DNA from: Allobosea sp. AAP35
Lineage (GTDB): Bacteria; Pseudomonadota; Alphaproteobacteria; Rhizobiales; Beijerinckiaceae
Assembly (NCBI RefSeq): GCF_001295925.1
Contig: NZ_LJHQ01000017.1
Span: forward strand, 1-64,000
Reading direction: 5' to 3'
DNA length: 64,000 bases
Below the pieces are notes generated by a model that worked only from the letters and a program-made list of their open reading frames with translations, was not told the DNA's origin and searched no databases. Numbering within the stretch: position 1 is the stretch's first letter; every line of letters begins with the position of its first letter. This document shows positions 20,065 to 60,648 of the stretch, one piece after another. A program made the position numbers and the translations under genes.

Positions 20065-20081
20065 GGCTCGGAAACTACTCA
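20065..20081 (-). promoter_or_regulatory. 17-bp FixJ-like box, copy 1 (cytochrome c, fusion regulator)
   Basis: Read towards the gene it is TGAGTAGTTTCCGAGCC, an exact fit to the consensus TGMGTAGWTTCCGANCC. It lies 122 nt before the cytochrome start at 19942, in the 195-nt gap after nosX. Copies of the same box precede eleven other genes in the window. Confidence 0.75.
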
Positions 20082-20137
20082 TCGCGTCGTGGTCCGCTCC
20101 TCGGCGGCGCTGCGCGACCTTGAGCACATTGGCGGCT

Positions 20138-21136
20138 CTATCCCGAGCCGATGACCGACGACCGGCCTTCCGCCAGGATGAGATGGGCCCGGCCCGCACC
20201 TTCGGATCGAAGTGCCATCCCGATGGCCTCTTCCGACATGAGCGAAAAAGCCGTCGACAGAGCATCCGCAGCCGTTGCCGTCTCCATCACCGTGGTGACG
20301 CTCAGATAGCGCTTCGGGCTTTGCCCCGTGACGGGATCGAAGAGATGGTTGAAGGCGCCGGCGGCGTCGAAGCGGAAGCCATAGCCCCCTGATGTCGCGG
20401 CCGCCTGATTGATCATTTCGAGCTGATCGGCAACGCGTGAGGGTTGGCGGGGATCGACGATACCCACGCGCCAGGCCGACCCGTCGGGCTTTGGACCAAT
20501 CGCCCGGCTCTCGCCCATGTCGACGATGCTTCGGTCGATCCCTTCCGACCGCAGAAGGTCGACGATCCGGTCGGTCACGTAGCCCTGTGCGATCCCGTTC
20601 AGGGTCAGCGACATGCCTCGTGGGAATGCGATGCGATCCCGGCCGATTGAGACGCGGTCGAACCCGATCTTTCCTCGTGCCTCACCGAGGGCGCGCTGTG
20701 ATGGCCCTTCGGCTGCGGCATCGGCCTGGGAGAAATGACGTCGGTGGAGTGTCCAGAGCGCCTGTACCGTCGGATCGAAGGCCCCCCCGGTCAGATCGAA
20801 GTGACGACGACATTCGCCGAGAAGATCGACCAGATCCTGGGGCGGCGCGACGAGGACGCCATGACGGTTCAGCGAGACGAGGGCGGAATCTTCCCGGTAG
20901 AGGCTGAAGACCCGCTCGAGCCGTTGGGTTTCCGCGACGGCGCGCTCAATGAGGCGTCTGGCGACGCTGCGATCGTGGTGGTGGATCTGGAGGCTGGCGA
21001 CGGCGCCCATGGCCTGGCCTCGCCAGCTCACCACGCCTGAATCCGCGCGCGCGATCCCGCCGAACGGGACGAGGGCCAGCCCCGTCGCGGCTGCGCTGAT
21101 GCCAACGAAGCGCCGGCGTGAGAGCATCGGTTCCAT
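20138..21136 (-). CDS. nosX: NosX, ApbE-type FAD:protein FMN transferase
   Basis: A periplasmic flavin transferase of 332 residues thought to attach FMN to NosR. It has a twin-arginine signal (SRRRFVGISAAATGLAL, about residues 6-22) ending near GIARA. The ApbE body includes GGAFDPTVQALW, LNGIAQGYVTDRIV (metal/FAD region) and TSGGYGFRFD. It is the last gene of the nosRZDFYLX operon. The start at 21136 follows the nosL stop by 11 nt and places the Tat motif at the N-terminus; the open frame runs far upstream but overlaps nosL. Confidence 0.93.
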   Translation of the reverse strand: MEPMLSRRRFVGISAAATGLALVPFGGIARADSGVVSWRGQAMGAVASLQIHHHDRSVARRLIERAVAETQRLERVFSLYREDSALVSLNRHGVLVAPPQDLVDLLGECRRHFDLTGGAFDPTVQALWTLHRRHFSQADAAAEGPSQRALGEARGKIGFDRVSIGRDRIAFPRGMSLTLNGIAQGYVTDRIVDLLRSEGIDRSIVDMGESRAIGPKPDGSAWRVGIVDPRQPSRVADQLEMINQAAATSGGYGFRFDAAGAFNHLFDPVTGQSPKRYLSVTTVMETATAADALSTAFSLMSEEAIGMALRSEGAGRAHLILAEGRSSVIGSG

Positions 21137-21147
21137 CGAAGGTCTCC

Positions 21148-21747
21148 TCAGTGCATGTGGCCCTTCTGGGCCGCCGGGTGCGGAGCCGGGGTCGCGTTCG
21201 TTTGAGTGGCTCCTTGCTCGTTCTTGATGATGCCCGAGGCTTCCGCGCCGGTGCCGAGCACATAGTCCTTGGGTACCTCGGCGAAGGATACAACGCGTCC
21301 GCCGTTCTCTTTCGCGAACGTCTCGGCAGAGGCCTTTTGCAGGAACGGTACCGCCTCGTCGGCTCCCATTCCGCCCTTCATCCGGCTGCCCAGAACGTAG
21401 GATGCCGCTTTCGCATCGATCCAGTTCGTGCGTCCCGGCTTGTCCCAACTAGGAGCCTTGCCCATGTCGGACACGTAGATGGCCCTAATGTCCTTGGGCT
21501 CTTCGGGCAGCATCGTGAACGAAAACGCGTCCCTGGCCGAAGAGAACCAGACAGGATCCTTGCGACTGGCCAGAATGATCTGCGCCTTCGGTCCGGAATG
21601 CTCGAGAACGTTCATGCCGCAGTAATGGCCGATCGCCGCGTTCGTCAGTTCGACCGCAGGTGGTGCAGCCGTTGCGGTCTGCTTCTCATTGCAGCCGGCG
21701 GCAGCGAGTGCGCCGGCGAAGGCTGCGATCAATGCAATCCGTCTCAT
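21148..21747 (-). CDS. nosL: NosL copper-binding lipoprotein
   Basis: An outer-membrane-type lipoprotein of 199 residues that supplies Cu(I) for NosZ maturation. The signal peptide ends in the lipobox LAAAGC (cysteine 19). The conserved copper site is YCGMNVLEHSGPKAQI (about residues 42-57). The C-terminal tail is His-rich (PHPAAQKGHMH), somewhat longer than usual and possibly an extra copper ligand region. It lies between nosY (11-nt gap) and nosX in the operon. Confidence 0.93.
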   Translation of the reverse strand: MRRIALIAAFAGALAAAGCNEKQTATAAPPAVELTNAAIGHYCGMNVLEHSGPKAQIILASRKDPVWFSSARDAFSFTMLPEEPKDIRAIYVSDMGKAPSWDKPGRTNWIDAKAASYVLGSRMKGGMGADEAVPFLQKASAETFAKENGGRVVSFAEVPKDYVLGTGAEASGIIKNEQGATQTNATPAPHPAAQKGHMH

Positions 21748-21758
21748 GGTGTGACTCC

Positions 21759-22586
21759 TCAGAGTTCTTTTTTGGCAAAGGCGAGCGCGGCCAGCGCGAG
21801 CGGAACCAGGGTCCAGGCGGCCAGCGCGGCAAGCAGGGCGGACGGGCTCAGATTGGCTGTCTGCGAGACGCCGCCCATCCCCGACAGCGCGCTGACGTTG
21901 CCGCCGGTCAGGTTCAGGAGGCGGTAGGCGTCGGTCGGGTTGAGCAGGAGAAGGGCGTCCAGCAGCCCTCCTGAAACGGTCTGGCCCTGATCGACGACCA
22001 GCAAGGCCAGAAGGGCCATGTCGTAGATCAAGACGAGCACGAGCCAGACGGCGATGGCGATGCCGGCGGCGGTGCCGCGCTCGCGGACCGAGGCGCTGAT
22101 CAGGTAGCCAAGGGCGATGAAGCCGGCACCGAGCAGCACCGACGAGCCCACCATCTTCGCAAAGGCGGTGAGGCTCTCCGCGTCGATCGCCGACCCGGTC
22201 GCGGCCAGCGCGACGGCGGCAGCCCCGTACCCCAGCAGGGTCGCGAAGGCGAGGATCGAGACGTGCCCGACGAACTTGCCCAGCAGCACCTGCCACCGCG
22301 CGATGGGGTAGCTCAGGAGCAGGACCATCGTGCCGCGCTCGGCTTCGCCGACGATGGCGTCATGCGAGATCAGCAGCGCGATCAGCGGCAGAAGGAAGAC
22401 GGTGAGACTGGAGAGGCTGACGATGACGACGTCCAGGGCGCGGGCGCCGACATTGCCTGTCGGTGCGCTCCCGAGGAAGGTCAACGTCAAGGCGAGCGCG
22501 GCCAGCAGGAGCGTCGTGGTCAGGACCCAGCGATTGCGCAGCCCCTCCTGGATCTCCTTGCGCGCGATGATCAGGATGTTTTGCAT
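21759..22586 (-). CDS. nosY: NosY, ABC transporter permease for NosZ maturation
   Basis: The inner-membrane subunit of the NosDFY complex, 275 residues with six predicted helices (roughly residues 20-40, 53-77, 102-125, 140-162, 172-195 and 248-270). It carries the family N-terminus ARKEIQEGLRNRWVL. The start overlaps the nosF stop by ATGA, so the two are coupled. NosDFY passes copper or sulphur for the CuZ cluster, by knowledge of the family. Confidence 0.93.
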   Translation of the reverse strand: MQNILIIARKEIQEGLRNRWVLTTTLLLAALALTLTFLGSAPTGNVGARALDVVIVSLSSLTVFLLPLIALLISHDAIVGEAERGTMVLLLSYPIARWQVLLGKFVGHVSILAFATLLGYGAAAVALAATGSAIDAESLTAFAKMVGSSVLLGAGFIALGYLISASVRERGTAAGIAIAVWLVLVLIYDMALLALLVVDQGQTVSGGLLDALLLLNPTDAYRLLNLTGGNVSALSGMGGVSQTANLSPSALLAALAAWTLVPLALAALAFAKKEL

Positions 22587-23503
22587 CACGCCGCATCCTG
22601 CGATCGGAGGAAATGGGCGTAGAGGTCGTCGAGCGTCGGCGGCACGACGTCGATATCGGCGATCGGCGCCCCCTCTTCGGACGCGCGGCGCAGCAATTCG
22701 ATCTTCTGATCGGGCGCGGCATCGATCTCGATCATGTGGCCGTTGACGCGCCGCCACGTCGCAAGCGGGCCAAACCAGGTCCGCGCGCGCTCCGCGTCGC
22801 CAGGAGCGCTTGTGATGCGAATGCGCGTGGGCAGGAGCGCGATGCGACGCAATTCCGTCAACGTCCCATCCGCGACCTTGACGCCCCGGTTCATGATGAT
22901 GACGCGCCCGGCGCGATCCTCAAGTTCGGTCAGCGCATGCGACGAGAGCAGGACCGTGGCGCCGCGGTCGCTCAGTTCCTGCACGATCTCGTAGAAGCTC
23001 TGGCGCAAGGCGGGGTCGAGTCCAGTGGTCGGCTCGTCGAGGAGGAGGACAAGGGGTTCACCCAGCAGGGCCTGGGCAAGCCCGAGACGCTGGCGCATGC
23101 CCTTGGAATAGGTTCCGATCCGCCGATCCGCCGCATCGGCGAGGCCGACGCGCTCGAGCAGGGGTTCGATCGTGCTGAGGTCCTCCCGTTTCAAACGGGC
23201 ATAGAATGACATGATCTCGCGCCCGCTCAGCGCTGCATTGAACGAGACGTTTTCGGGCAGGTAGCCAACGCTCCGGCGGGCTGCGAAATCGCCTGCAGCA
23301 GGATCGTCGCCGAGCATCTCGATGGTTCCCAGACTGGCCTGGATCAGCCCCAGCATGAGCTTCATCAAGGTCGTCTTGCCGGCGCCATTATGGCCGACCA
23401 GCGCCACGACTTCGCCTGCATGGAGCCTGAAGGAGACCTCGCGCACGGCCTCGATCCTGCCGAAGCGTTTGGTGACGGACTGCAGATCAATGGTTTTGGT
23501 CAT
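22586..23503 (-). CDS. nosF: NosF, ABC transporter ATP-binding protein
   Basis: The ATPase of NosDFY, 305 residues. Walker A is GHNGAGKTTLMKLML (about residues 38-52), the signature is YSKGMRQRLGLAQALL, Walker B is [15 protein letters not shown] and the switch region is SSHALTELED. Its start overlaps the nosD stop by ATGA. Position and length are as in other nos operons. Confidence 0.95.
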   Translation of the reverse strand: MTKTIDLQSVTKRFGRIEAVREVSFRLHAGEVVALVGHNGAGKTTLMKLMLGLIQASLGTIEMLGDDPAAGDFAARRSVGYLPENVSFNAALSGREIMSFYARLKREDLSTIEPLLERVGLADAADRRIGTYSKGMRQRLGLAQALLGEPLVLLLDEPTTGLDPALRQSFYEIVQELSDRGATVLLSSHALTELEDRAGRVIIMNRGVKVADGTLTELRRIALLPTRIRITSAPGDAERARTWFGPLATWRRVNGHMIEIDAAPDQKIELLRRASEEGAPIADIDVVPPTLDDLYAHFLRSQDAA

Positions 23504-24891
23504 GGCTGCGCGGCCCAGCCGGATTGCGGGCGCGAAGGCGCGCTCATCAGGGGGCTCTTGTCGATCACACCGCCTGGGAGGAGCGCGGGAAACTGGGCCT
23601 GCGCCCAGCGGATGACCTGCACAGCGGGACTGTTCACGAGCACCTTGGCCTGGGGAACCGTCCAGAGGACGGTGTCCATCAGGTCGTTGGGCCGGTAGGC
23701 GTTGTCGCCGATGCCATCCCCGTCGAGATCGAAGGCGGGATTGTCGCTCCAGTAATTGCCGCGCCCGCCCTTCGACCAGTCGAGATACCGGGTCCCGACA
23801 TATTTGACCTGGTTCTGGTTGCGTACGAAGGCGTTGCCGACGATCTCGTTACCCTCGGATCCGGCCGTGAAGTGGATGCCGATTTCGCAGCCCTCGAACC
23901 AGTTGTCGCGGAACTTGTTCTGGTTGGCGTTGTAGATGAACACGCATTTGCCTGGCGCGCTTCGCGCCCCTGCATTCAGGCTCGGCGGCTTTTCGTCAGG
24001 CGCAGGAAGCCCATGCGCGCGTTCCTCGCCTGCCAGCATGCCCGATGTGGTCCAGCGCTCGGCAGGCTGGAGACGGCCCAACACGCTGTTGCCGGTGATC
24101 TGCGAGCCATTGGCATAGTTGAACAGGAAGCCGTGGTCGCGGTCCCCGTCGGAGACGTTGCCCCGGACGACGAGCCGGTGCGAGTACATGATCGCGAAGC
24201 CGACGGTGTTGCCGATCGAGACGTTGTCGCTGATCTCGCTGTCGTTGGTGTACATGTAGTGGACCGCGAAGCGGACATCGCGGAAGCGGTTTCCGATAAA
24301 CTGGTTCTGCTTGCTGGCGATGGTGAAGATGCCGTCCCGGCCGTAGCGGATATCGTTGTCGAGGACCTTGGCTCCGGGCGCGTTCCAGACCGACACGCCG
24401 TTGCCGGCCTCGTTCGTGCGGCCTTCCTGGATGCCGATGATCACATTGGCGCGCGCGACCGCGTTCACGGCACCGTGCAGATAGATACCGTAAAGGTTGC
24501 CTTCGATCCGGTTGTTCTCGACGACCGCCCCCGTTGCGGTGCGCTCCACGAAAACGCCGGCGTTCATCTGGTCTAGGTCTAGCCCCGATCCCCGGATGGT
24601 CAGCCCGCGCACCTTGGCTCCTGGAGCCGCGACTGTGACCACGTTTCCAGTCCCCGAACCGATGAGGATCGCGCCGGGCTCACCCTCGAGAACGAGTTTT
24701 CGCGATAGCCGCAGGGGCGCGCGGTGCTCCCCGGCCGAGAGCGCGATGACGTCGCCGTCCTTCGCGCCGTCTAGGATGGTCTGAAGATTGGCCTCGCCCG
24801 GGCGAACGAGAACGCGTTCGGCCCAGGCGGGGGTGATCAGGCAGGCGCCGGCCAGGGCCGACGCCAACATCAGAATGCGGTATGGACGCAC
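23500..24891 (-). CDS. nosD: NosD, periplasmic beta-helix copper-processing protein
   Basis: A periplasmic protein of 463 residues needed to build the NosZ CuZ centre. A Sec signal peptide covers residues 1-24 (ending TPAWA). The body is a run of parallel beta-helix (CASH) repeats such as NNRIEGNLYGIYLHGA, GNRFRDVRFAVHY and RDNWFEGCEIGIHF. It begins 3 nt after the nosZ stop, so it is tightly coupled. Normal length. Confidence 0.95.
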   Translation of the reverse strand: MRPYRILMLASALAGACLITPAWAERVLVRPGEANLQTILDGAKDGDVIALSAGEHRAPLRLSRKLVLEGEPGAILIGSGTGNVVTVAAPGAKVRGLTIRGSGLDLDQMNAGVFVERTATGAVVENNRIEGNLYGIYLHGAVNAVARANVIIGIQEGRTNEAGNGVSVWNAPGAKVLDNDIRYGRDGIFTIASKQNQFIGNRFRDVRFAVHYMYTNDSEISDNVSIGNTVGFAIMYSHRLVVRGNVSDGDRDHGFLFNYANGSQITGNSVLGRLQPAERWTTSGMLAGEERAHGLPAPDEKPPSLNAGARSAPGKCVFIYNANQNKFRDNWFEGCEIGIHFTAGSEGNEIVGNAFVRNQNQVKYVGTRYLDWSKGGRGNYWSDNPAFDLDGDGIGDNAYRPNDLMDTVLWTVPQAKVLVNSPAVQVIRWAQAQFPALLPGGVIDKSPLMSAPSRPQSGWAAQP

Positions 24892-24894
24892 AGG

Positions 24895-26838
24895 TCAGGC
24901 GTTCTTCGGCTCGACCAGCATCCGGCCCTTCATCTCCATGTGCATCGCATGGCAGAACCAGGTGCAATAGTACCAGTAGAGGCCGGCCTTCTCGGCCTTG
25001 AACGTCACCGACGCCGTCGCCTGAGGTGCGACCTCCATGCTGATGCCGTAGTTCACGATGGCGAAGCCATGCGTCAGGTCGTCGATCTCGTCGACATTGG
25101 TCACGTAGACCGTGACGTCGTCACCCTGCTTGATATCAAAGTGATCGAGGCCGAAGGCCGGCGCCGAGGAGGTCATGTAGACCCGCACCGTGGTGCCATC
25201 GCGGATCACTTTGGAGTCCGACATCAGATCGACACCGTCGGCCTTTGCCTGACGCACGGCATCGGCGAAGAAGACGTCGTCACGCTTCCAACTGTTGATG
25301 GGGTTGATCTTGGACCGGTGGACGATGGTCGCGTCGTGGGGTTCGGCGAAGCTCGGCCCATCGTGGACGATGACCATGCGGTCTCCCGAGATATCGACCA
25401 GCTGGTCGTTTTCGGGCTTCAGCGGGCCGACGTTGAGGAACCTGTCCTTGGAGAACTTATTGAGCGAGATCAGCCATTTGCCGTCGGCTTCCTTGGTCTG
25501 GCCCATCGATGTGTGATTGTGGCCAGGCTGGTAGTGGACGTCGAGCTTCTGGATGACGGGGTTCACCTTCTCGCCCTTGTAGGCGCGCTTGGCGACGTCG
25601 ATGTTCCACTTCACCACCTGGCTGTCGAGGAACAGCGTGGTGTAGGCGTTGCCCCTGCCGTCATAGGCGGTGTGGAGCGGGCCCAGGCCGATCTCGGGCT
25701 CGGCCACGACGGTATCGCGCGGCTTGATCTTGTCGGCGAACAGATCGTCGAACTTGCGGACGTCGAACACCGTCGCGGTCGGCGACAGCTTGCCGGCGAC
25801 GACGACGTGGATGCCATCGGGCGCGGTGTTGATGCCATGAGGGCTGTTGGCGACGGGGACGTAGCGCGTGAACGCCGACCCGGCCCGGCCATTGAGGACC
25901 GGCACGCCGCCGATCGTCTCGAACTGCCCCTTCTTGACCGCCTCTTCGATGCGCTTGAGGTCGAAGATGACGATCCAGTCCTGCTCCTTGGCCATCATCT
26001 CGGCCAGCGTCACACCTTCTTCGGAGTTGTAGCTGGTCGCGAAGGCGTATTTGCCCTGATAGTCGGCATCGACGTTGTCCAGGTTGCCATCGACCATGAT
26101 CTGCCAGGCGACCTTCATGGTGTCGCCATCGATCGCCGAGAAGATCGAACGGTAGGTCTTCGGGTCGTTCATGGTCCGCCCGTCATTGGGAATCGGGACG
26201 CCGTCCTCGCCATTGGCGAAGACGTAGCCAGTCCTCGGATATTTCTGCACGCGCAGACCGTGGACCGTGTGCTGGTTGGGAAGCTGGACGATCTTGTCGC
26301 ACTTCATCACGTCCAGCCGGATGCGGCAGACGCGCGTGTTCAGCTTGTCGTTGGCGAACAGGTAGCGCCCGTCATAGGTGCCGTCGGTGAAGGAGAGATG
26401 GGGGTGGTGCAGGTCGCCGTTGAGGTAGACGCCGCCCTTGTCCTTCAGGTACTCGACGTTCTCCGGCTGCAGTCCCTCGGTGAGGACTTTCCGGCTCTCG
26501 TTAGTCTGGCCCCAGCCCGTCGCGCTGCAGCGATTGAACACGGGAATGCGCATCAGCTCGCGCATCGAAGGACAGCCGACGACGCGGATTTCGCCGCACT
26601 GGCCGCTCGAGAAGAAGGCGTAATACTCGTCGAGCTCGCCCGGCTTGATCTCATATTTCGATGCGGTCGATCGCGCGGCGGGAGCCGAGGCCCTTGTCTG
26701 TGCTTCGGCCGGCGTGGCGGCGCCCATTTGCGTCAGCCCGATACCGCCGGCAAGCCCGGTCGCGCCCGCGGCGGCGACCGCTGCGGTCGTGCCGAGCATG
26801 TCGCGCCGGCTCAGGTCTGATTTCACGTTCTTGGTCAT
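24895..26838 (-). CDS. nosZ: NosZ, nitrous-oxide reductase (clade I, Tat-exported)
   Basis: The terminal denitrification enzyme (N2O to N2), periplasmic, 647 residues. The N-terminus has a twin-arginine signal ([17 protein letters not shown]), which marks clade I. The beta-propeller carries histidines of the CuZ centre (for example [12 protein letters not shown] and [12 protein letters not shown]). The C-terminal cupredoxin holds the CuA ligands [14 protein letters not shown]. All appear intact, so it should be active. It lies 16 nt after nosR. Confidence 0.97.
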
Positions 26839-26854
26839 GATTTATTCCTCGTGC

Positions 26855-29221: not shown

Positions 29222-29353
29222 CCAATTTGTCCTGAAAGGAGCCGGCTCGCGTGGACATAATCCGGGCGGGTGCAGCCACGTTGGGGGCAACGGGCCGCCA
29301 TCAGGCGGCCGGTCGGGTCCGGGCAGACATGCACCCTCCCCTCAGGCGGTTCG

Positions 29354-29367
29354 TTGCTCTGGAACAA
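29354..29367. promoter_or_regulatory. FNR/NnrR-type half-site pair TTG-N8-CAA before nosR
   Basis: TTGCTCTGGAACAA lies in the 211-nt divergent gap between nosR and the ferritin-like gene, 133 nt before the nosR start and 66 nt before the other. Only the outer TTG/CAA match the FNR consensus. FNR/NnrR control of nosR is well known in denitrifiers, which raises the prior. Confidence 0.45.
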
Positions 29368-29432
29368 GTCGCACGCCGATGGTTGGCCCTAGGATCGCGA
29401 TTCGCCCGAGAGCGGTTGTCGAGAGCAATGCG

Positions 29433-32756: not shown

Positions 32757-32791
32757 GAGGTGAGGTTTCGGGGTGGTCAGCCGGGCGTGGA

Positions 32792-50792: not shown

Positions 50793-50809
50793 TGCGTAGT
50801 TTCCGAGCC
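50793..50809 (+). promoter_or_regulatory. 17-bp FixJ-like box, copy 6 (adhP)
   Basis: TGCGTAGTTTCCGAGCC, a perfect fit, 138 nt before the adhP ATG. The 329-nt gap 50618-50946 shows no gene, only this and copy 5. Confidence 0.75.
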
Positions 50810-50946: not shown

Positions 50947-51984
50947 ATGACACGCATGATGCAGGCCGCGACCGTCGAGCATTTCGGCAAGCCGCTGGTC
51001 TTGCGGGAATGGGCGGTGCCGACGCCCGGCCCTGGCCAGATCCTCGTCAAGACGGAAGCCTGCGGCGTCTGTCATACCGATCTTCACGCCGCCAGTGGCG
51101 ATTGGCCGGTCAAGCCGTCGCTGCCTTTCATTCCCGGCCATGAGGGCATCGGGCTCGTCGTCGAGGTCGGTGCTGGCGTGACGGCGGTGAAGCAAGGCGA
51201 ACGCGTCGGTGTCCCCTGGCTATTCTCGGCCTGCGGCCATTGCGAGCATTGCCTTGCCGCATGGGAGCCGGTCTGCGCCGAGGCCGAATTCGGTGGCTAC
51301 ACCCGCAATGGCGGCTTCGCCGAATACATCCTGGCCGATCCCGACTATGTCGCGCATATCCCGGTCGGTCTCGCGGCGCGCGATGCGGCGCCGATCATCT
51401 GCGCCGGCATCACGACTTACAAGGGCATCAAGGAGACAGGCGCCCGGCCCGGCGAATGGATCGCGATCTCCGGCGCCGGCGGCCTCGGGCATCTCGCCAT
51501 CCAATATGCCAAGGCGATGGGCCTGCAGGTCTGCGCGGTCGATATCGACGACGGCAAGCTCGACCACGCGACGCGGCTGGGCGCCGACGTCGTCGTCAAT
51601 GCCAGGACGAGCAACGATCCCGCGGCGGAGGTGAAAGCGGCGACTGGAGGTGGCGCCCATGGCGTCCTGATCACCGCGCCGTCGCTTCCGGCCTTCAAGC
51701 AGGGCGTCGCCATGACGCGCAAGCGCGGGACCTGCGTGCTGGTCGGCCTGCCGCCCGGCGAATTTCCGGTACCGCTGTTTGGCGTCGTCGCCGACTGCAT
51801 CACCATCCGCGGTTCCTTCGTGGGCAGCCGGCACGACATGGCCGAGGCTCTCGCCTTCGCCGCCGCCGGAAAGGTTCGCGCCGACATCGAATTGCAGCCG
51901 CTTTCGGCGATCAACGACGTCTTCGGGCGCCTTCAGCGCGGCGAGGTGCCGGCCCGCGTCGTGATCGATTTCGCCCCGGCGTGA
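50947..51984 (+). CDS. adhP: Zinc-dependent alcohol dehydrogenase, AdhP type
   Basis: A medium-chain NAD-dependent alcohol dehydrogenase of 345 residues. Catalytic zinc ligands are in ACGVCHTDLHAASGDWP and PGHEGIG. The structural zinc cysteines are in ACGHCEHCLAAWEPVC, and the nucleotide fold is SGAGGLGHLAIQYAKAMG. All are intact. It probably reoxidises NADH by making ethanol, or oxidises alcohols. A perfect 17-bp box upstream fits use under low oxygen, together with NifJ. Confidence 0.93.
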   Translation: MTRMMQAATVEHFGKPLVLREWAVPTPGPGQILVKTEACGVCHTDLHAASGDWPVKPSLPFIPGHEGIGLVVEVGAGVTAVKQGERVGVPWLFSACGHCEHCLAAWEPVCAEAEFGGYTRNGGFAEYILADPDYVAHIPVGLAARDAAPIICAGITTYKGIKETGARPGEWIAISGAGGLGHLAIQYAKAMGLQVCAVDIDDGKLDHATRLGADVVVNARTSNDPAAEVKAATGGGAHGVLITAPSLPAFKQGVAMTRKRGTCVLVGLPPGEFPVPLFGVVADCITIRGSFVGSRHDMAEALAFAAAGKVRADIELQPLSAINDVFGRLQRGEVPARVVIDFAPA

Positions 51985-52131: not shown

Positions 52132-52854
52132 TCAGGCTTTTGCATTGGCCTGGGCTTCGGCTGAACTTTGCACGATCCGCCCATCGATCATGTCGATGAT
52201 ACGGTCGGTGCGGGCCGCGAGATCGAGATTATGCGTCACGATCAGGAATGTCGTTTTTTCCGATTGGTTGACCTCCCGCATCAACGCGAAGACGTCATCG
52301 GCCGATTTGGAGTCGAGGTTTCCGGTCGGCTCGTCGGCAAGGATGAGCCCTGGTTTCATCGCCAGGCTTCGCGCGATGGCGACGCGCTGTTGCTGTCCGC
52401 CCGACATGTTGTTGGCGAGGTTGTCCTGCCATTTCGTCAGACCGACTTTCGCCAGCAGTTCGTGTGCCCGCACCCGCATCGCCTCGCTGGGAAAGGCCTT
52501 GTCGACGAGCATCGGCATCATCACGTTTTCCAGCGCGGTGAATGCCGAGATCAAGCAGTGATGTTGGAAGATGAAACCGATCCTGTGACCGCGCAGGCTG
52601 GTGACGTCGGTGTCGTCCAGCGCGCTCGTGTCGCGACCTTCGATGATGAGCCGACCGGCCGTCGGACGGTCGAGGAGACCGATGATGTTGAGCATCGTGC
52701 TCTTGCCGGAGCCGGATGCGCCGGTCAGTGCGATGAACTCGCCCGCTTGCAGCGTGAGATCGATGTCATGGAGAACCTCGACGGGGACCGGCGTCCCGAT
52801 GCCATAGGATTTGCAGACACCCTCCAGCCGCAGCAGGGGCTCCGGGTCAGCCAC
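52132..52854 (-). CDS. ABC exporter ATP-binding protein (MacB/LolD-type)
   Basis: 240 residues using GTG at 52854 ([13 protein letters not shown]), which overlaps the permease stop. Walker [16 protein letters not shown], signature [16 protein letters not shown], Walker [16 protein letters not shown] and switch VTHNLDLAA are intact. It is the last gene of adaptor - permease - ATPase on the minus strand. Substrate unknown. Confidence 0.9.
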
Positions 52855-54076
52855 GGATAGCCACCACGGGGTCGAGCCTGGCCGCACCTAGCGCCGGTAT
52901 TGCGGCCGCAGCGATACCGGTCAGACCTGCCAGGACTACCGCGCCGATGAAGAGGCTCGGCTCGAATATCAGACTGAAAATCTCGCTGCCATCAGCCTGG
53001 CGCATATAGGAGTGCCAGAACACAAGTCCGGCGCCGCCCACGCCCGCGCCGAGGATGGCTCCGAATATCCCCAACAGACCGCCTTGCAGCAGAAACAGGC
53101 GCAGGATCTGCCCGCGCGACGACCCCATGGCACGCAGAATGCCGATATCCTTCGAGCGCTGGATGACGGAAACGACCAGCACGCTGGCGATGCCGAAGGC
53201 CACCGACAATCCCACGAACAGCCGGATCAGGGTGTTCGAGGATTGCTGCGCTTTGACCGCCGTGAAGAACTGGGCGTTGGTCTTGATCCAGCTATCGGCT
53301 TCGACGCCGGTTGCCGCCTGCACCGCCCGTGCGATGGTCTCGGCGGCGTAGATATCGGTCACGGTGAGATCCAGCGTCGTGACGCCGCCGACCAAGTCGG
53401 ACAGCGCCTGCGCCGTCCGCAGGGCAACGAAGGTCGAGCGGAGATTGGCGCCCTTGTTGCCGAGATCGAAAATGCCGGTGATCGTGAGCGTGCGGGTCGC
53501 GCCCGAAGCCGCGCGGATGATGATCTTGTCGCGCAGCGTGACCCCCAGTTCGCGGGCCAGATCCGTGCCGACAAGGATGTCGTCGGTCAGAACCTGTGCG
53601 GTCCCCGACACGATATAGTCGGGGATCCGAACGATTCTGAAATAGAGATCCTGTTCGATGCCCGTCAGCGTCACGGAGCGGCTGGCGGCGCCCCGGATCG
53701 CGAGGGCCGACGCACTCGTGGTCGGCGATACGGTCACGATGCCGGGCCAGCTCGCGAGCATCGTGACGAAAGTCTGCCATTGGTCGATCGAGCGGGTGCG
53801 CTGCGTCGGCCGCTGGATCGTCGCCGCCACCATGCTGCCGGCCGTTGACAGACGCTGAGGACGGGCGACCTCGTCGGGCGGAACCAGCTGGATATGAGCT
53901 TGCGACGTCAACACGCGCTTGAGAAAGTTGGCCTGCAGGCTCGAGAGCATGGCCGACATGAACACGATGACCGCCACGCCGATCGCGACCGCTGTCAGGA
54001 TGAAGATCGTCTGCATCCGGCCCTCCCGCAGGAAGCGTAGCGCCGCGATCCACTCGAAAGGCAACCATGAGGTCAT
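52847..54076 (-). CDS. ABC exporter permease, FtsX/MacB type
   Basis: 409 residues: one N-terminal helix (about 22-45), a large periplasmic part (about 50-280) and three C-terminal helices (about 290-312, 335-360, 370-395). It overlaps the adaptor stop by ATGA. It forms the inner-membrane pump with the neighbours. It belongs to the LolC/MacB-like group; no outer-membrane channel is encoded nearby. Confidence 0.9.
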
Positions 54077-55296
54077 GGCGTGGACTTCGGATTGAGTTTG
54101 GGACGGATGCGTGCGCCTTCGGCGATCGCTGCCGTGGCCGGCACGATCAGCGCGCCCTCATCGACGCCGGAGAGGATTTCGGCGCGACCGGCGCCCATCA
54201 ACCCGACCGTGACGGCTTGCCTGCGCGCGCGCCCATCGACCGCGACGAGAAGCCAGGGCTTGCCGGTCGCGAACTCGCGAAGCGCTGCCATCGGCACGAC
54301 GAGCGTGGCATCGCGTCGGCCGACCTCGATATCGACCGATATCGTCATGTCCTGCCGGAGATAGGCCGGAGCGTCCGGCATATTGAGTTTGACCTCGACG
54401 GAGGCGCGCTGGATGTCGATGGCCGGATTGATGAATGAGACTTCGGCTCGAAAGGTCTGGCGCGGATAGGCGTCGGCCGATGCGATCGCCGGCTGGCCGA
54501 GTGCGACCAGCCCGATATTCTTCTCGTCGATCTGCAGGACGATCTGGCTTGCTCCGATCGGCGACAGGGTCATCAGCACCGTCGAAGGCCCGACCACATT
54601 CCCGGTTTCGACATTCCGCGAGATCAGGATACCGTCCGTGGGCGTGGTGATGACGGTGTAGGCCAGTCGCGACCTCGCCGACCCGAGCGCGGCGTTCGCC
54701 TGATCGAGCTGGGTCTGCTGCATCACGACATCGCTGCCGCCTGGACTATTGGTGAACACCTGGAGATCGGCGTTGCGAACCTGGGCCCTGGCGATGTCGA
54801 GCCCGCGGATCGCATCATCGAGCGTGGTTCGCGCTCCATAGCCATCTTCAACGAGCTTGAGGGCCCTGGCATGGATCTGCTGCGCATTCACCAGCGTCGC
54901 CTTGGCCTGCGTCAAGGTCTCGCGCGCCGAGGGCAGGGTCAGCTCCCGTAACTGGCGGATGCGCGCAACAGCCTGATCGCGAACGCCCTCGGCTTGCACC
55001 ACGGCGGCTTTCGCCTCGCGATCGTCCAGCATGATCAAGGTATCCCCGGCCTTGACAGTCTGGCCTTCAATGACCGGGATCTGCGTCACCGTGCCGGTGA
55101 TCTGCGCGCCGATGCTGATGCGGAATGGCGCCTCGACATGGCCGCTGGCGACGATGCTGCGAACGAAATCGGTCCGCACGACGGCATCGACCGGAACAGT
55201 GCTTCCGACAATGAGGGGCATGCCGACATAGCCTGCGATCGCGGCGACAGCGATGGCTCCGCCGACGAAAAGGGCGATGCGTCGGGAGACCTTCAT
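54073..55296 (-). CDS. Periplasmic adaptor (HlyD/MacA-like) of the second ABC exporter
   Basis: 407 residues. The N-terminal anchor (RIALFVGGAIAVAAIAGYVG) is followed by the lipoyl and hairpin domains (IPVIEGQTVKAGDTLIMLDD; coiled coil about 95-185), the second lipoyl half and a barrel ending near residue 395. It is the first gene of the second exporter operon, with a 17-bp box 73 nt upstream. It is a different subfamily from the adaptor at 10914-12086. Confidence 0.9.
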   Translation of the reverse strand: MKVSRRIALFVGGAIAVAAIAGYVGMPLIVGSTVPVDAVVRTDFVRSIVASGHVEAPFRISIGAQITGTVTQIPVIEGQTVKAGDTLIMLDDREAKAAVVQAEGVRDQAVARIRQLRELTLPSARETLTQAKATLVNAQQIHARALKLVEDGYGARTTLDDAIRGLDIARAQVRNADLQVFTNSPGGSDVVMQQTQLDQANAALGSARSRLAYTVITTPTDGILISRNVETGNVVGPSTVLMTLSPIGASQIVLQIDEKNIGLVALGQPAIASADAYPRQTFRAEVSFINPAIDIQRASVEVKLNMPDAPAYLRQDMTISVDIEVGRRDATLVVPMAALREFATGKPWLLVAVDGRARRQAVTVGLMGAGRAEILSGVDEGALIVPATAAIAEGARIRPKLNPKSTP

Positions 55297-55368: not shown

Positions 55369-55385
55369 GGCTCGGAATCTACGCA
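55369..55385 (-). promoter_or_regulatory. 17-bp FixJ-like box, copy 7 (second exporter operon)
   Basis: Read towards the adaptor gene: TGCGTAGATTCCGAGCC, a perfect fit, 73 nt before the ATG at 55296. Confidence 0.74.
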
Positions 55386-55470: not shown

Positions 55471-56007
55471 TTAGCTGCGGTCACGCTGCATCCGGGCGCG
55501 GTGATTGCGCTGGCGCTTCTGAGAGCGCCGCGAGGGAGGCGCCGAAATCTCCGTCAATGTCAGGGCGGCAACGCCAACCGCGAGGTTGACGCCGGTCTGT
55601 CCCTGGACCGAAAGCGGCTGCAGCGTCACGGCGCCATCGTTCCCACCGACCAGAACACTGGCGCCCCCGCCGACGCCGACAGTCGCCTCGGCGCTGACCC
55701 CGGCATAGGTGCCGTTGAGGCCACCGGGCCGCAGAGCGGGCTCGACCACAGCCCAGACCATGCCGCCCTTGGTCGTCGTGCCGATATCGAGCCCGAACTT
55801 CCGGATCGTGCCGGTGTAGAACTCGACGCGCCCGCCCAGCGCGTCATAACGACAGGTCATGGCCTTTTCCGATGTCAGGATCATGCCCGTGCCGCCTGCA
55901 ACGTTGCAGATGAGTTCGCCTGCGCGAACGACTGGCGCTGCAGACGCTGCGGACGGCGCGACGGCGACGATCGCGGCCAATCCGAGGAGGCGGATCGTGT
56001 TCGTCAT
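55471..56007 (-). CDS. DUF992 family exported protein
   Basis: A 178-residue exported protein. A signal peptide (IRLLGLAAIVAVAPSAASA) is followed by RAGELICNVAGGTGMILTSE, typical of the alphaproteobacterial DUF992 family, and a Gly-rich middle. The C-terminus is unusually basic (PPSRRSQKRQRNHRARMQR). The start at 56007 gives the signal; a longer frame to 56028 is less likely. A degenerate 17-bp box lies 64 nt upstream. Function unknown. Confidence 0.8.
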   Translation of the reverse strand: MTNTIRLLGLAAIVAVAPSAASAAPVVRAGELICNVAGGTGMILTSEKAMTCRYDALGGRVEFYTGTIRKFGLDIGTTTKGGMVWAVVEPALRPGGLNGTYAGVSAEATVGVGGGASVLVGGNDGAVTLQPLSVQGQTGVNLAVGVAALTLTEISAPPSRRSQKRQRNHRARMQRDRS

Positions 56008-56070: not shown

Positions 56071-56087
56071 CCGTCGGAAATCACTCA
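56071..56087 (-). promoter_or_regulatory. 17-bp FixJ-like box, copy 11 (DUF992 gene)
   Basis: Read towards the gene: TGAGTGATTTCCGACGG, 64 nt before 56007. It shares TGATTTCCGA with copy 12, so these two may be a subclass. The weakest of the set. Confidence 0.5.
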
Positions 56088-56330: not shown

Positions 56331-56347
56331 TGAGTATTTTCCGAACC
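56331..56347 (+). promoter_or_regulatory. 17-bp FixJ-like box, copy 8 (small ORF and P2-ATPase)
   Basis: TGAGTATTTTCCGAACC, one mismatch. It is only 28 nt before the small ORF start at 56375, which hints that the real start of that gene is later (56399 or 56420s) or that the ATPase is the main target. Apart from this copy and copy 11, the 367-nt gap 56008-56374 shows nothing. Confidence 0.65.
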
Positions 56348-56374: not shown

Positions 56375-56722
56375 ATGAGCGAAGCGACGTTTGCGCGGAT
56401 GGGCCACGTCAATTTCGCGTGGATGAGAACCATGCCGCTTCAACGACATCCTGCTGCAATTCAACAGCGACCCGAATGCGGCACCGGCATTTGGCGCGAG
56501 ATGCCCGATGCAACGCTGCTGGCGAGGATCGCAGAGCGCATGAACGACCCCTCCGACGCTATGACGGCCGATGCAAGTGCCGCCGTTTCGCGCGAGCCGT
56601 TGAAGCAAGACGCCGCAAAGATCGGCGGGCGACGTATCGATTGCCGCGGCGCGAGAACTGAAACCCGCGCTCTCGTCCTGGCGGGACTGCGCCGTTTCGA
56701 TCCGGCGATGACGACGTGGTGA
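56375..56722 (+). CDS. Hypothetical protein before the P2-type ATPase
   Basis: A 115-residue frame (MSEATFARMGHVNFAWMRTM at its start, WREMPDATLLARIAERMNDP in the middle) with no family I recognise. Later ATGs at 56399 and 56423 are possible. It runs into the region just before the ATPase and would be translated from the same box-driven message. Codon use looks ordinary, but I cannot rule out that it is leader RNA. Confidence 0.4.
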   Translation: MSEATFARMGHVNFAWMRTMPLQRHPAAIQQRPECGTGIWREMPDATLLARIAERMNDPSDAMTADASAAVSREPLKQDAAKIGGRRIDCRGARTETRALVLAGLRRFDPAMTTW

Positions 56723-56802: not shown

Positions 56803-59664
56803 ATGGATCAGATGAGCATCGTGCATAATTCCGATGGCGAGATCGACGCCTACCGCCGATCGGCAGACTACGTCGTCGGGCAGCTCGAAACGCATTCGCA
56901 GCTTGGGTTGACGGAAGAAGAGGCGTCGATACGCCTCGCCCGTGACGGCCCGAACACGCTCGAGGCCGAACCTGTCGTTCCGGCCTGGCAGCGATTTCTT
57001 GCCCAGTTCAGCGATGTCCTGGTCATCCTGCTTTTGGTCGCGGCTCTGATCTCGGCCGGGCTGTGGTTTGTCGAGCGCGCAACGGCGCTGCCCTATGAAG
57101 GGCTGGCCATTCTCGCTATCGTCCTGCTCAACGCGGTGATGGGGTTCGCCCAGCAATCACGGGCCGAGCAAGCCGTCCTGGCCTTACGCCGGATGTCGGC
57201 TGCGACAGCCACCGTCATCCGGGACGGGGCGCGCAACAGCATCGCCGCCGCCGGCCTCGTCGCGGGCGATGTCATCCTCATCGAAGAGGGCGATCTCGTT
57301 TCTGCCGATGCGCGCCTGATCGAATCCGTGTCGCTGCGCATGGCCGAAGCGCCCTTGACGGGTGAGAGCCTGCCCGTTGCAAAAAACACCGCTGTGATCG
57401 CGCAGGACGTGGCGCTGGGCGATCGCGGCAACATGGTCTTCAGCGGCACGTCTGCGAGCTATGGCCGTGGTCGGGCGGTGGTGACCGCGACGGGTAAGCA
57501 CACGGAACTCGGTCGCATCTCCGAGATGCTGAAGGCCACATCCAAGGAGGCGACACCGCTTCAGCGCGAGCTCGATCGCCTCGGCAAGCAGCTCGGCCTG
57601 ATCGTTGTCGCGATCGCCGTGGCGATGATCGCCACGATTCTGGTCACCCAGGACGTTCGCGACGCAAAAGCGGTGTTCGACGTGTTCATCCTCGGCGTTG
57701 CGCTGGCGGTGGCGGGCGTGCCCGAAGGTTTGCCTGCGGTGGTGACGGCGTCACTGGCTCTGGGCGTCCAGCGTCTGGCCAGGCGCAATGCGATCGTGCG
57801 TCACCTGGCCGCCGTCGAGACGCTCGGCTCTGCGACCGTGATCGCCTCGGACAAGACCGGGACGCTGACGAAGAACGAGATGACGGTGCGGCGCATCGTG
57901 ACGAAAGCCGGCATCATCGAGATCAGCGGTGCGGGGTATGCGCCCAGGGGCGAACTGAAGCGCGAGGGCGGAGGGGCGATCGAGGGCGCGCTCCTGCTGG
58001 AGGCTATGGCCGCGCTGACCGCAGCGCAGCGGGCCAGCAACGCCGTCGTGCGAGAGCAGGACGGGCATTGGACAGTCTATGGCGACCCGACCGAAGGGGC
58101 CTTGCTCGTCGCCGCGCGCAAAACGGGTCTGGCGGACGTCGAAGACGACCCACGCTTTGAGCGGATCGCGGAGGTGCCGTTCTCCTCGCAACGCAAGCTC
58201 ATGAGCACCGTCCATCGCGATTTGGAAACGCCGGATGCCATCCTGGTTTCGGTCAAGGGTGCGCCGGGCGTGGTGTTGGCGCGGTGCTCGCATGAACAGG
58301 TCGGTGGCGAGGCGCGCCCACTCAGCGCCGCGCGCCGCGCGGCCATTCTCGACAGCAACGCCGAACTGGCCAGTGCTTCCTTGAGGACGCTGGCGGTTGC
58401 CTCCCGGGCACTGGCGCACACGCGGTCTGACGACGACGCCGGCTTTGACGAACGCATCGAGACAGACCTCGTTTTTCTCGGCCTGATCGGCATGATCGAT
58501 CCGCCGCGGCCCGAGGCGAAAACGGCTGTCATCCGTGCGCAGCGGGCCGGCATTCGTCCTTTGATGATCACCGGAGATCACGCTGCGACCGCCAGCGCGA
58601 TCGCGGCCGAAATCGGTATCGCCAGCGACGGTCAGGTCGTGACCGGCATCGAACTGGCGACAATGTCGGATGAGGTGCTGCAGCAGACCGTTAGCAAAGT
58701 CTCCGTCTATGCGCGCGTCAATCCGGAGCACAAGCTGCGGATCGTGAGGGCCTTGCAACGCGATGGCGCGACCGTCGCGATGACGGGTGATGGCGTCAAC
58801 GACGCCCCGGCGCTGAAAGCTGCCGATATCGGCGTCGCGATGGGGATCACCGGCACCGACGTCTCGAAAGAGGCCGCCGATATCGTGCTTTCCGACGATA
58901 ATTTCGCGTCGATCGTTGCAGCCGTCGAAGAGGGACGTGCAATCTTCGACAATATCCGCAAGTTCCTGCGCTATCTCCTGTCGTCGAACCTCGGCGAAGT
59001 CCTGACGATGTTTTTCGGCGTGCTGTTGGCCAATGTGATCGGATTAAGCGATCATGGTCCCGGCCAAATCGTATTGCCGCTGCTCGCGATCCAGATCCTT
59101 TGGATCAATCTCGTCACTGATGGTGCGCCGGCTTTGGCGCTCGCAGTGGATCCGGCCGCTCCCGATACGATGACGAGGCTGCCGAGGCGACGCGATGAAG
59201 GCGTCATCACAGCGACTATGTGGATGGGCATCGCCTATGTCGGCGTCATCATGGCGGCCGGGACGCTGCTGGTTCTCGACGCTGCTCTCCCCGGTGGAAT
59301 GATCGAGGGCACGGGATCGCTTGTCTATGCCCAGACCATGGCCTTCACGACGCTGACGCTGTTCCAGCTTTTCAATGTCCTGAACGCGCGTTCCGATGTC
59401 CGCAGCGCATTCAGCGGGCTGTTCGAGAACCGCTGGCTCTGGGCGGCGATCGGGTTGTCGCTGTCGATGCATGGTGCCGTGCTTTACTTGCCGTGGCTCC
59501 AGCAGGCGTTCTCGACCTCCCCGCTCACGGCAGGTGATCTGGGCCTCTGCACCGTGGTGGCGAGTTCCGTGCTTTGGCTGCGCGAGGCGAGCAAGTTGGT
59601 GTCGCGTGCGCGAGCGAGTGGGGAACGCAGAGCGGCGAGCGCGGGACCGGCGATTGCAACGTGA
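56803..59664 (+). CDS. P2-type cation-transporting ATPase (Ca2+/CtpF-like)
   Basis: 953 residues. The cation-ATPase N-domain (SRLG-like QLGLTEEEASIRLARDGPN), actuator (LTGESLPV), phosphorylation site (SDKTGTLTKNEMTV, about 350), hinge ([21 protein letters not shown]) and the six C-terminal helices are all present. The membrane motif PEGLPAVV is of the P2A type (SERCA/PMR1/CtpF). The ion is probably Ca2+ or Mn2+. The ATG at 56803 is chosen; GTG codons at 56716/56719 overlap the preceding ORF. A similar ATPase (CtpF) is in the DosR regulon. Confidence 0.92.
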   Translation: MDQMSIVHNSDGEIDAYRRSADYVVGQLETHSQLGLTEEEASIRLARDGPNTLEAEPVVPAWQRFLAQFSDVLVILLLVAALISAGLWFVERATALPYEGLAILAIVLLNAVMGFAQQSRAEQAVLALRRMSAATATVIRDGARNSIAAAGLVAGDVILIEEGDLVSADARLIESVSLRMAEAPLTGESLPVAKNTAVIAQDVALGDRGNMVFSGTSASYGRGRAVVTATGKHTELGRISEMLKATSKEATPLQRELDRLGKQLGLIVVAIAVAMIATILVTQDVRDAKAVFDVFILGVALAVAGVPEGLPAVVTASLALGVQRLARRNAIVRHLAAVETLGSATVIASDKTGTLTKNEMTVRRIVTKAGIIEISGAGYAPRGELKREGGGAIEGALLLEAMAALTAAQRASNAVVREQDGHWTVYGDPTEGALLVAARKTGLADVEDDPRFERIAEVPFSSQRKLMSTVHRDLETPDAILVSVKGAPGVVLARCSHEQVGGEARPLSAARRAAILDSNAELASASLRTLAVASRALAHTRSDDDAGFDERIETDLVFLGLIGMIDPPRPEAKTAVIRAQRAGIRPLMITGDHAATASAIAAEIGIASDGQVVTGIELATMSDEVLQQTVSKVSVYARVNPEHKLRIVRALQRDGATVAMTGDGVNDAPALKAADIGVAMGITGTDVSKEAADIVLSDDNFASIVAAVEEGRAIFDNIRKFLRYLLSSNLGEVLTMFFGVLLANVIGLSDHGPGQIVLPLLAIQILWINLVTDGAPALALAVDPAAPDTMTRLPRRRDEGVITATMWMGIAYVGVIMAAGTLLVLDAALPGGMIEGTGSLVYAQTMAFTTLTLFQLFNVLNARSDVRSAFSGLFENRWLWAAIGLSLSMHGAVLYLPWLQQAFSTSPLTAGDLGLCTVVASSVLWLREASKLVSRARASGERRAASAGPAIAT

Positions 59665-60191
59665 CGGCGTTCACGACAGCCCCACGCCGTGCTCGGGTGG
59701 AAGGCCGTAAAACCGGCAGCCAATCGCACCTCATCGCACCGGGCTAGCCCATGCGAAACGGAAGCGCGGAATATCTCAAGCGTGCTGGAAATGATGCGCA
59801 GCGAGGAGAGCAGCACCGCGCCGCGTCGGTGCGAGAGCATGTTCCTGTCGATGATTTGCGGCTGGTCGGAGCAATTTCTGCTCGCTGGCAAGCGTCTGCT
59901 GGCCGGCGAGACGGCGCGCGGCGACCAGTGACGCAGCGGAGGAATTGCGCAGCGAAGCCCAGGTCCGGAAGGAGCTGAAGCCGGTCTGACCTTGGAGACC
60001 GAAGTCTGAATGAGGCATGCTCACCGTTGGGGAGGACGACGCATGAGCCAATTTCATCCGAGATGGTCGAGGCTTGGTATCTGCCGGCGCAGCTTACGCA
60101 AGAGAAACTCGGCATGACGCGGCACCATCGCACCCAAGATCGGATCTGGCGGGCATGGTCGAGATGTTGCGATGGCGCCGTCGAGAATCCG
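59665..60191. other. 527-nt region without a confident gene
   Basis: A plus-strand frame at 59689-59931 (80 codons, NISSVLEMMRSEESSTAPRR in the middle) could be a small gene but has no clear start signal. The rest is antisense to nothing and shows no box. A P2-ATPase terminator is expected here but I cannot see a clear one. Confidence 0.5.
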
Positions 60192-60557
60192 TCAGCAGCC
60201 CCATGCACCGCAGCCGCGGCGATAGCCGCGCCCTCCGTAGTAGTTTCTGTTGTAGCCTCGGCCGCCGTAGCCGCGACCATAATAGCCTCTGTCATAGTAG
60301 CGCGAGGATCTGCTGTCGGCGACGAGCGCAGCCCCGATGAGGCCCGCCGTCGCACCTGCCACGACCACCCCTGTGGCCGCATCGGACTGCCGCCGGTCCT
60401 GCCGGATATTGGCTGCGACGCAGTTTTGGTAGGACCGGGTCGTTGGGCGAAAGCCGGATTGCTGGCAAACGACGTCGGCATTGGCCTGCGACTGCTCGAG
60501 CGTCTGGCAGCCCGCCAGCCCAGTGGCCAGGATGGCGGTGATGATCAGGGTTCGCAT
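60192..60557 (-). CDS. Small lipoprotein with Tyr/Gly/Arg-rich tail
   Basis: 121 residues. A lipoprotein signal with lipobox LAGC (cysteine 17) is followed by a short Gln-rich part, a glycine-zipper stretch (GVVVAGATAGLIGAALVA) and a tail rich in RGYGGRGY-type repeats (about 85-118). It is probably anchored in the outer membrane. A 17-bp box lies 75 nt upstream. Function unknown. Confidence 0.8.
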   Translation of the reverse strand: MRTLIITAILATGLAGCQTLEQSQANADVVCQQSGFRPTTRSYQNCVAANIRQDRRQSDAATGVVVAGATAGLIGAALVADSRSSRYYDRGYYGRGYGGRGYNRNYYGGRGYRRGCGAWGC

Positions 60558-60631
60558 AGGCTTGCTCCGGTGCGCCGACCCAGGACGAGGGCGGCTTTGC
60601 CCGAAGCTAGGCCGAAGCCCGCGGCACGCTA

Positions 60632-60648
60632 GCCACGGAAACTACGCA
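60632..60648 (-). promoter_or_regulatory. 17-bp FixJ-like box, copy 9 (lipoprotein)
   Basis: Read towards the gene: TGCGTAGTTTCCGTGGC, 75 nt before the ATG at 60557. Positions 1-13 fit fully. Confidence 0.65.

Follow-up and report, generated by a model that had tools for sequence, protein, structure and literature searches.

The first 64,000 nucleotides (nt) of contig NZ_LJHQ01000017.1 of Allobosea sp. AAP35, the whole of which is referred to here as the window, contain twelve copies of a 17-bp box, TGMGTAGWTTCCGANCC, which is real and occurs far above chance. Judged from sequence, this box is very probably the binding site of a single fused regulator encoded at 14899-19341 on the reverse strand, a CheB-CheR-PAS-HisKA-HATPase_c-REC-REC-LuxR/GerE protein (Pfam) that we predict to combine a phosphorelay and an activator in one piece and to control a survival regulon. 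Box and protein occur together in numerous soil and water bacteria. We assign the box to the fused protein because 27 loci of other FixJ-like proteins lacked a site and because box counts follow the fusion. What was computed directly is the box and where it is placed, the constant spacing of a -10-like element behind it, the co-occurrence of box and regulator, and the conservation of the regulator's catalytic residues.

Recurrence and placement of the box

All twelve copies that the original prediction had placed between 20065 and 60632 are present in the window, with 0, 0, 2, 3, 1, 1, 2, 0, 0, 4, 1 and 2 mismatches to TGMGTAGWTTCCGANCC in coordinate order; five had been called essentially perfect, and the actual count is four exact copies and three with one mismatch. 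A search of the window at up to three mismatches gave 13 matches where 1.64 were expected, a number reached by none of 100 dinucleotide shuffles. These 13 comprise eleven of the twelve boxes together with matches at 5261 and 23105, the twelfth being missed because the copy at 56071 carries four mismatches. Across the organism's own genome (4,461,984 bases) ten of the twelve matches with at most two mismatches and all seven with at most one fall inside the window, while a control with the pattern read backwards matched six times at two mismatches or fewer and never at one or fewer. On a scoring matrix trained on the twelve window sites alone these sites score 19.0-27.7, which are their training scores, with the runner-up in the window at 15.3 and the two own-genome matches outside it at 16.2 and 17.8.

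With a simple gene caller ten of the twelve boxes are intergenic and face the next gene, 25-153 nt from its called start. The earlier claim that each copy does so extends to all twelve provided that the target of the copy at 60632 is corrected, as the open reading frame (ORF) first given for it (59744-60481) is by eye not protein-like and was rejected; the fitting target is a lipoprotein-like ORF of 121 amino acids (aa) at 60192-60557 on the reverse strand, 74 nt away (translation, by eye). A start only 28 nt from the box at 56331, also part of that prediction, is doubtful because the predicted transcription start would lie after it, and the called starts there are 56501 and 56803. The called start at 50668, 25 nt from the box at 50694, is probably too far upstream because it too would come before the predicted transcription start. 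The box at 49404 faces an MFS gene whose start is obscured by its reading in two frames. As a common element we also considered the FNR/FixK box, of which the window holds one exact copy (TTGAYNNNNRTCAA, in the pstB-phoU gap) against 0.12 expected; with this single copy, FNR/FixK boxes are not the explanation.

Co-occurrence of box and regulator

We searched 199 genomes of the family with a 220-aa C-terminal query from the regulator, and 27 of them, the own genome included, formed a clear group (E 1.1e-55 or better, open frames of at least 958 aa) that was taken as having the fusion. At least three boxes with at most one mismatch were present in 16 of these 27 genomes versus two of the 172 without the fusion (Fisher p 1e-14), the box totals at this threshold being 173 and 39 sites, respectively. 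The regulon had been proposed to be local, which holds for the own genome and fails in a relative with 33 boxes of at most one mismatch spread over several contigs. A class survey was based on an even draw of 240 genomes, with the exact 18-bp pattern as the box and a near-whole match without stops to a C-terminal alignment model (A1) as the fusion. Here the box was present in five of the seven genomes with the fusion versus seven of the 233 others, the pattern occurring in 12 genomes in total and its backwards control in six. The remaining two of the seven (G213 and G233) have boxes scoring 19.5-24.7 in the regions fetched around their regulators. One further genome (G354), in which the A1 match contains three stops, was not counted as having the fusion.

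A different reading of these data would have the box bound by an ordinary FixJ, or by some other separate FixJ-like regulator, with the fusion acting as a neighbour or upstream kinase. The likeness to a FixJ site that had been noted from the sequence is borne out, as the consensus sites from systematic evolution of ligands by exponential enrichment (SELEX), GTAGTTTCCC and GTAMGTAG, and the Sinorhizobium meliloti fixK site, TAAGTAATTTCCCTTA, are comparable, and the left half of the box and its TTTCC core equal published FixJ sites (PMC4999443). The nearest solved relative of the second receiver and helix-turn-helix (HTH) domain is FixJ, REC-HTH matches are present in all 199 family genomes, and one genome (G198) holds two boxes without a fusion. 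However, 170 of the 172 fusion-less family genomes have fewer than three boxes despite their REC-HTH matches, the S. meliloti fixK site scores just 12.0 on our matrix, and 27 loci of other, non-fusion FixJ-like proteins (93 kb) gave no site of 16 or more. This control left out five loci (L179, L180, L181, L196 and L198), and in three of these (L179, L181 and L198) a scan gave no site of 15.5 or more. We regard binding by a separate FixJ-like protein as very unlikely, and canonical FixJ was rejected as the binder on co-occurrence across genomes.

A further genome (G264, L208/L209) encodes a 610-aa PAS-HisKA-HATPase-REC-GerE relative without CheB and CheR (HisKA just below the cut-off). The 36 kb read contain eight boxes; each of them has T at position 18, and by eye a -10-like stretch follows in most cases. 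The box therefore seems to go with the kinase-HTH core rather than with CheB/CheR. Six of these eight boxes begin TC or TA-C/TA-G and not TGA, and the relative represents a second protein architecture that would use nearly the same site. In two other genomes (G144 and G159, loci L217 and L218) the fused regulators are about 40% identical, the recognition helix region is altered and one weak site lies nearby; their specificity may have changed naturally. In the single locus from G198 (L223) the two boxes, both good, stand at 9953 and 11263, 1.3 kb apart. The nine further members of the own genus that were sampled fall outside the 27-genome fusion group, so the island in the window may have been acquired.

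Sites around regulator genes in named genomes

Scanning named genomes with alignment A1, we kept the best 80 of 457 relatives. Their loci include Bosea, Bradyrhizobium, Rhodoblastus, Methylocella, Lichenifustis, Xanthobacter, Rhodopila, Acidocella, Parvibaculum, Magnetospirillum, Sphingorhabdus, Caballeronia, Paraburkholderia and Dyella, which we take to span the Alpha-, Beta- and Gammaproteobacteria. With the window-trained matrix 78 of the 80 loci showed a site scoring at least 18, and with the reversed matrix none did. A total of 284 sites was obtained, 260 of them facing the next called gene (median distance to the called start 135.5 nt), 16 facing away, six at a contig end and two inside ORFs, a site being counted as inside if an ORF of the simple caller extended beyond it by more than 40 nt on both sides. 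Called coding sequence makes up 82% of bases in these loci; the motif is rare within genes in the relatives.

In 64 of the 73 loci with enough flank, a box scoring at least 17 is no further than 700 nt from the regulator gene; it stands on the 5' side pointing away in 51 of the 73 and on the 3' side pointing onward in 37. The commonest neighbour of the regulator in a clustering of L092-L171 is a receiver-only protein of about 130 aa (35 genes in 34 loci), which sits directly behind a box in 17 cases.

Promoter architecture

In an alignment of 282 non-redundant sites, the window included, G4, T5, C11, C12 and G13 are close to 100% conserved, with C at position 17 in 97% and T at position 18 in 98% of sites. 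Positions 17-21 form a weak CTGCC-like stretch, and positions 41-47 resemble a -10 element. The pattern YANNNT occurs at offset 40-42 in 213 of the 282 sites, whereas sixteen other 3-nt bins gave 8-26 each. A second promoter set, which may overlap the first in some sites, gave 77 of 113 versus 1-10 in other bins, and in the window nine of the twelve sites carry the -10 pattern against a background of 4.6%. The -35 region behind the box is poor in consensus. The usual placement of a -10 puts the transcript start about 53 nt after the start of the box, which is therefore centred near -43. Sequence alignment thus places the box at a predicted class II activator position, overlapping or abutting a poor -35 at a fixed distance from the -10.

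A second element at a fixed offset, and the many stress genes among the targets elsewhere, could also suit a promoter element of an alternative sigma factor of the extracytoplasmic function (ECF) type. Against this, the box is 23-40 nt ahead of the -10, beyond the usual -35 spacing, and the element further downstream has the ordinary form TANNNT. What the loci share, by selection, is the gene of a LuxR-type regulator, and no sigma factor was present among the identified gene clusters, many clusters being without identification. We consider this reading extremely improbable.

It is also conceivable, though unlikely, that the fused regulator does bind the box but acts there as a repressor or anti-activator. 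The box touches the -35 region, where repressors also bind, and in Rhodopseudomonas palustris FixJ, even in its unphosphorylated form, acts on nif promoters by binding and repressing them (PMC13327599). Against this stands the poor -35 behind the box, which should leave the promoters weak unless they are assisted. The fixed phase of box and -10 is typical of activators, and activation by the fused regulator is the reading followed below.

The one-piece regulator

The gene lies within a 1561-aa ORF (14899-19584, reverse strand), whose residue numbers are used throughout, and counted from Met82 it encodes a protein of about 1480 aa. We put the start near 19341 because the ORFs of relatives mostly measure 1392-1491 aa (67 of 79) and because the first 81 residues have by eye a non-coding look; the CheB domain begins at residue 123 (Pfam), and the start of the simple caller, 19143, falls within CheB. 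The gene follows 217 nt after that of a cytochrome c, which is itself behind the first box.

Pfam identifies two Response_reg domains and GerE, giving a receiver with a phosphorylatable Asp and a C-terminal GerE HTH as in FixJ/NarL (LuxR-type) regulators; unlike the separate FixL and FixJ, kinase and regulator form a single polypeptide. The nearest solved structure to the second receiver and HTH is FixJ (5xso, E 7.9e-39). On this part the NCBIfam FixJ equivalog NF006900 reaches 217 bits, under its cut-off of 255, and we therefore call it FixJ-like and not FixJ. The kinase with the first receiver best matches the NahK/ErcS model NF041832 (347 bits, below the curated cut-off of 400). Among 68 full-length relatives the phospho-acceptor His975, both receiver Asp residues and the kinase boxes are kept in 67 or 68 rows, the second receiver Asp in all 68 and four HTH residues in 67-68. 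Within CheB the His is kept in 67, the Asp in 68 and the Ser in 58 rows (with gaps in nine others), and the CheR motif residues in 67-68. Their conservation leads us to propose a one-piece phosphorelay ending in a FixJ-like activator. In a Pfam scan of the window, covering 40 proteins between 8114 and 63776, neither FIST/NosP nor a chemoreceptor was found.

Predicted target genes in the window

The predicted targets are distributed over both strands, given below as + and -. Box 1 (20065-20081, -; exact) stands 122 nt before the cytochrome c gene (19559-19942, -; Pfam), for which the nearest NCBIfam model is cytochrome c-550 CycA at 193.9 bits, below the cut-off of 240. Box 2 (32740-32756, -; exact) stands 131 nt before an 82-aa ORF (32360-32608, -) that heads a same-strand run (30327-32608, -). 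A 381-aa ORF (31102-32247, -) and, third, a FixK/Crp-type regulator gene (30327-31010, -; FixK model NF050806, 211 bits, below the cut-off of 300) follow after gaps of 112 and 91 nt; the two ORFs have no family match and the operon status of the run is putative. Such a run from box 2 to a FixK-like gene would mirror the FixJ-fixK pair. Box 3 (34176-34192, +) is 134 nt before nirK for copper nitrite reductase (34327-35466, +; TIGR02376, 507.9 bits, over cut-off). Box 4 (37016-37032, -), with A at position 18 and no matching -10, is 110 nt before a Usp gene (36018-36905, -; PF00582), and box 5 (37116-37132, +) is 99 nt before an operon (37232-41688, +; Pfam) for a PstB-like ATPase, a PhoU-like protein (631 aa) and a short pyruvate phosphate dikinase (PPDK_N, 533 aa).

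Box 6 (49404-49420, -), likewise without a matching -10, lies upstream of an operon for the MFS protein, a GltD-like protein, NifJ (pyruvate:ferredoxin oxidoreductase) and a DHOD-like protein (41725-49321, -; upper bound approximate). Compared with a Bradyrhizobium relative, its MFS gene (48025-49321, -) changes frame between the part that matches residues 23-203 and the part that matches 214-433, a frameshift that is either real or from assembly. Box 7 (50694-50710, -) lies upstream of an Acg/Rv3131-family FMN nitroreductase gene (49520-50668, -; start probably further downstream; NF047509, 305.6 bits, cut-off 199), and box 8 (50793-50809, +; exact) lies 137 nt before adhP for an AdhP-like zinc alcohol dehydrogenase (50947-51984, +; 329 bits, cut-off 344). 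Box 9 (55369-55385, -; exact) is 72 nt before an ABC exporter operon of HlyD, an FtsX/MacB permease and an ATPase (52132-55296, -; Pfam), and box 10 (56071-56087, -; four mismatches, no matching -10) is 63 nt before a DUF992 gene (55471-56007, -; Pfam). Box 11 (56331-56347, +) precedes a small ORF (56501-56722) and then a P2-type (Ca-type) cation ATPase gene (56803-59664, +; Pfam; TIGR01522, 691.5 bits, below the cut-off of 798.3), and box 12 (60632-60648, -) precedes the lipoprotein-like ORF given above.

Pfam and NCBIfam also identify a denitrification set in the region, namely NosR, NosZ, NosD, NosF, NosY, ApbE, NnrS and NirK. The nosRZDFY-apbE genes and nnrS share the island (20138-33973), and neither nosR nor nnrS is directly preceded by a box. 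By tblastn no homologues of 59744-60481, 32360-32608, 31102-32247 or 56501-56722 were present in the fetched loci.

Predicted target genes in relatives

Most of the recurring target operons are box-led in other genera, so that the box is mostly retained in relatives that keep the targets. Box-led homologues in the fetched loci were counted for MFS (4/4), GltD (4/4), NifJ (3/3), DHOD (2/2), the PhoU-like protein (3/3), PPDK (3/3), Usp (1/1), AdhP (5/6) and PstB (4/6), and three of five CopA-like homologues are box-led elsewhere, though the gene is not box-led in the window. Two loci on contigs of 21,709 nt each with equal values (L154 and L225) and two that seem to come from one species (L139 and L149) mean that there are fewer independent events than rows. 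Among first-downstream genes elsewhere, with Pfam and NCBIfam tallies covering 103 of 206 usable genes, we found PhyR-type receivers (9), Dps/ferritin (6), OmpA (5), SPFH (4), P-type ATPases (3), CsbD (3), PRC (3), KaiC (2) and Usp (2); BON and Ysc84 proteins occur at eight loci each.

Proposed mechanism and observations that speak against it

From the results above we infer binding, the order of phosphotransfer, activation, the signal and the role of CheB/CheR as follows. The kinase core (PAS, His975 and ATPase) would hand phosphate to receiver 1 (Asp1264), to the FixJ-like receiver 2 (Asp1404) or to both. Phosphorylation would then let the FixJ-type LuxR domain bind TGAGTAGTTTCCGANCCT, centred at about -43 and touching the poor -35, and the bound regulator would recruit sigma70 RNA polymerase to promoters with a -10 and no good -35. 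The predicted regulon would be a 40-kb island of anaerobic-energy and survival genes in the own genome, to which the FixK-like gene that closes the run behind box 2 would belong, and a larger, genome-wide stress regulon in relatives. Positive autoregulation is possible in the own genome, given the boxed cytochrome c gene just upstream of the regulator. Our guess from the targets is that the signal is low oxygen, nitric oxide (NO), energy limitation or stationary-phase stress, and CheB/CheR perhaps serve adaptation by methylation.

A number of observations weigh against this model. Three of the twelve window sites lack the -10 pattern, and some of the window's genes are mostly or partly without a box in relatives: box-led homologues number 1/2 for the nitroreductase, 1/2 for the P2-ATPase, 0/1 for cytochrome c and 1/6 for DUF992, as well as 0/1 each for NosF and an FNR-type gene. 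The 80 named loci were chosen by the regulator itself, and the two without a site (L095 and L162) are short, at 4.9 and 4.1 kb. Outside the window a facing box precedes the regulator gene in only 3 of 73 loci, so that autoregulation is not general. Six of the 27 fusion genomes have no box at one mismatch or fewer; weaker sites of 17.9-21.8 lie near their regulators, with a single site of 17.9 in each of G144 and G159. Conversely, two fragmented genomes (G050 and G154, 450 and 870 contigs) have three and eight boxes with no fusion seen, and in the single-contig G198 with its two boxes no fusion was found. A close relative of the second receiver and HTH in G249 (L179; 377-aa frame, E 1.4e-98) has no exact box anywhere in its genome, and the 3.6 kb read near it contain no box either. 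Two of the loci left out of the FixJ-like control each hold one site, of 18.1 in L180 (G264) and of 17.5 in L196, a second copy in G325.

Comparison with known systems

We found no description of the fusion, the box or the regulon in the open-access literature, outside which most subscription journals fall. A CheB-CheR hybrid is mentioned in Rhodospirillum centenum (PMC2890560). Our analysis gives a likely DNA site and target list for a large CheB-CheR-kinase-LuxR family whose output is undescribed in the literature searched, and the regularity of the box and its -10 allows regulons to be predicted in genomes that have the fusion. Three questions become directly testable: the signal to which these sensors respond, the function of CheB and CheR in a fusion with a kinase and a transcription factor, and the extent of overlap between a FixJ-type stress regulon and the general stress response based on sigma factors. 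We take this to be a regulon of FixJ type whose regulator architecture is new and whose box is its own, and it appears to be a stress control system not previously described.

At fixK, described as the only known conserved member of the FixJ regulon, the regions protected by FixJ are -69 to -44 and -57 to -31 (PMC4999443). The box core GTAGTTTCC is identical to a FixJ SELEX consensus, and much of the left half of the box recurs in the fixK site (PMC4999443). Further likenesses are the REC-HTH that is nearest FixJ, the similar promoter position and the FixK-like gene in the run behind box 2. Here, however, CheB and CheR are followed by kinase, two receivers and HTH in a single protein, the box has a right half (CGANCCT) and a terminal CT of its own, and there are many targets in place of mainly fixK. 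The fused kinase and first receiver recall NahK/ErcS, their best match though below cut-off. NahK/ErcS are NosP-linked hybrid kinases that are NO-responsive in pseudomonads, and NahK is not known to have CheB, CheR, a second receiver or a LuxR domain.

A LuxR-type response regulator with Usp, an Acg-type nitroreductase and a P-type ATPase also resembles the DosR system. The DosR regulon has members of these three kinds, the Acg/Rv3131-family nitroreductase being DosR-controlled in mycobacteria. A likeness to DosR has been described for the Burkholderia cenocepacia lxa locus, which the available text discusses with BCAM0049/FixK and FixLJ and not with the fused regulator (PMC6127331). The regulator architecture here is unlike that of either system. 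Nor are the box and most genes of DosR and lxa known to match those here.

Target kinds elsewhere, including Dps, CsbD, OmpA, PRC, BON and PhyR-like receivers, are reminiscent of PhyR-EcfG and overlap with EcfG targets. EcfG is a sigma factor with its own -35 and -10, whereas here an activator site at about -43 is combined with a sigma70-like -10, and the system also occurs in Beta- and Gammaproteobacteria. As a tentative proposal, which we hold to be somewhat doubtful, the fusion could represent an unrecognised master stress and dormancy system of the Proteobacteria, in which one protein with methylation-demethylation domains, a phosphorelay, a FixJ-type HTH and its own adaptation would act through a single box at -43, beside or instead of PhyR-EcfG.

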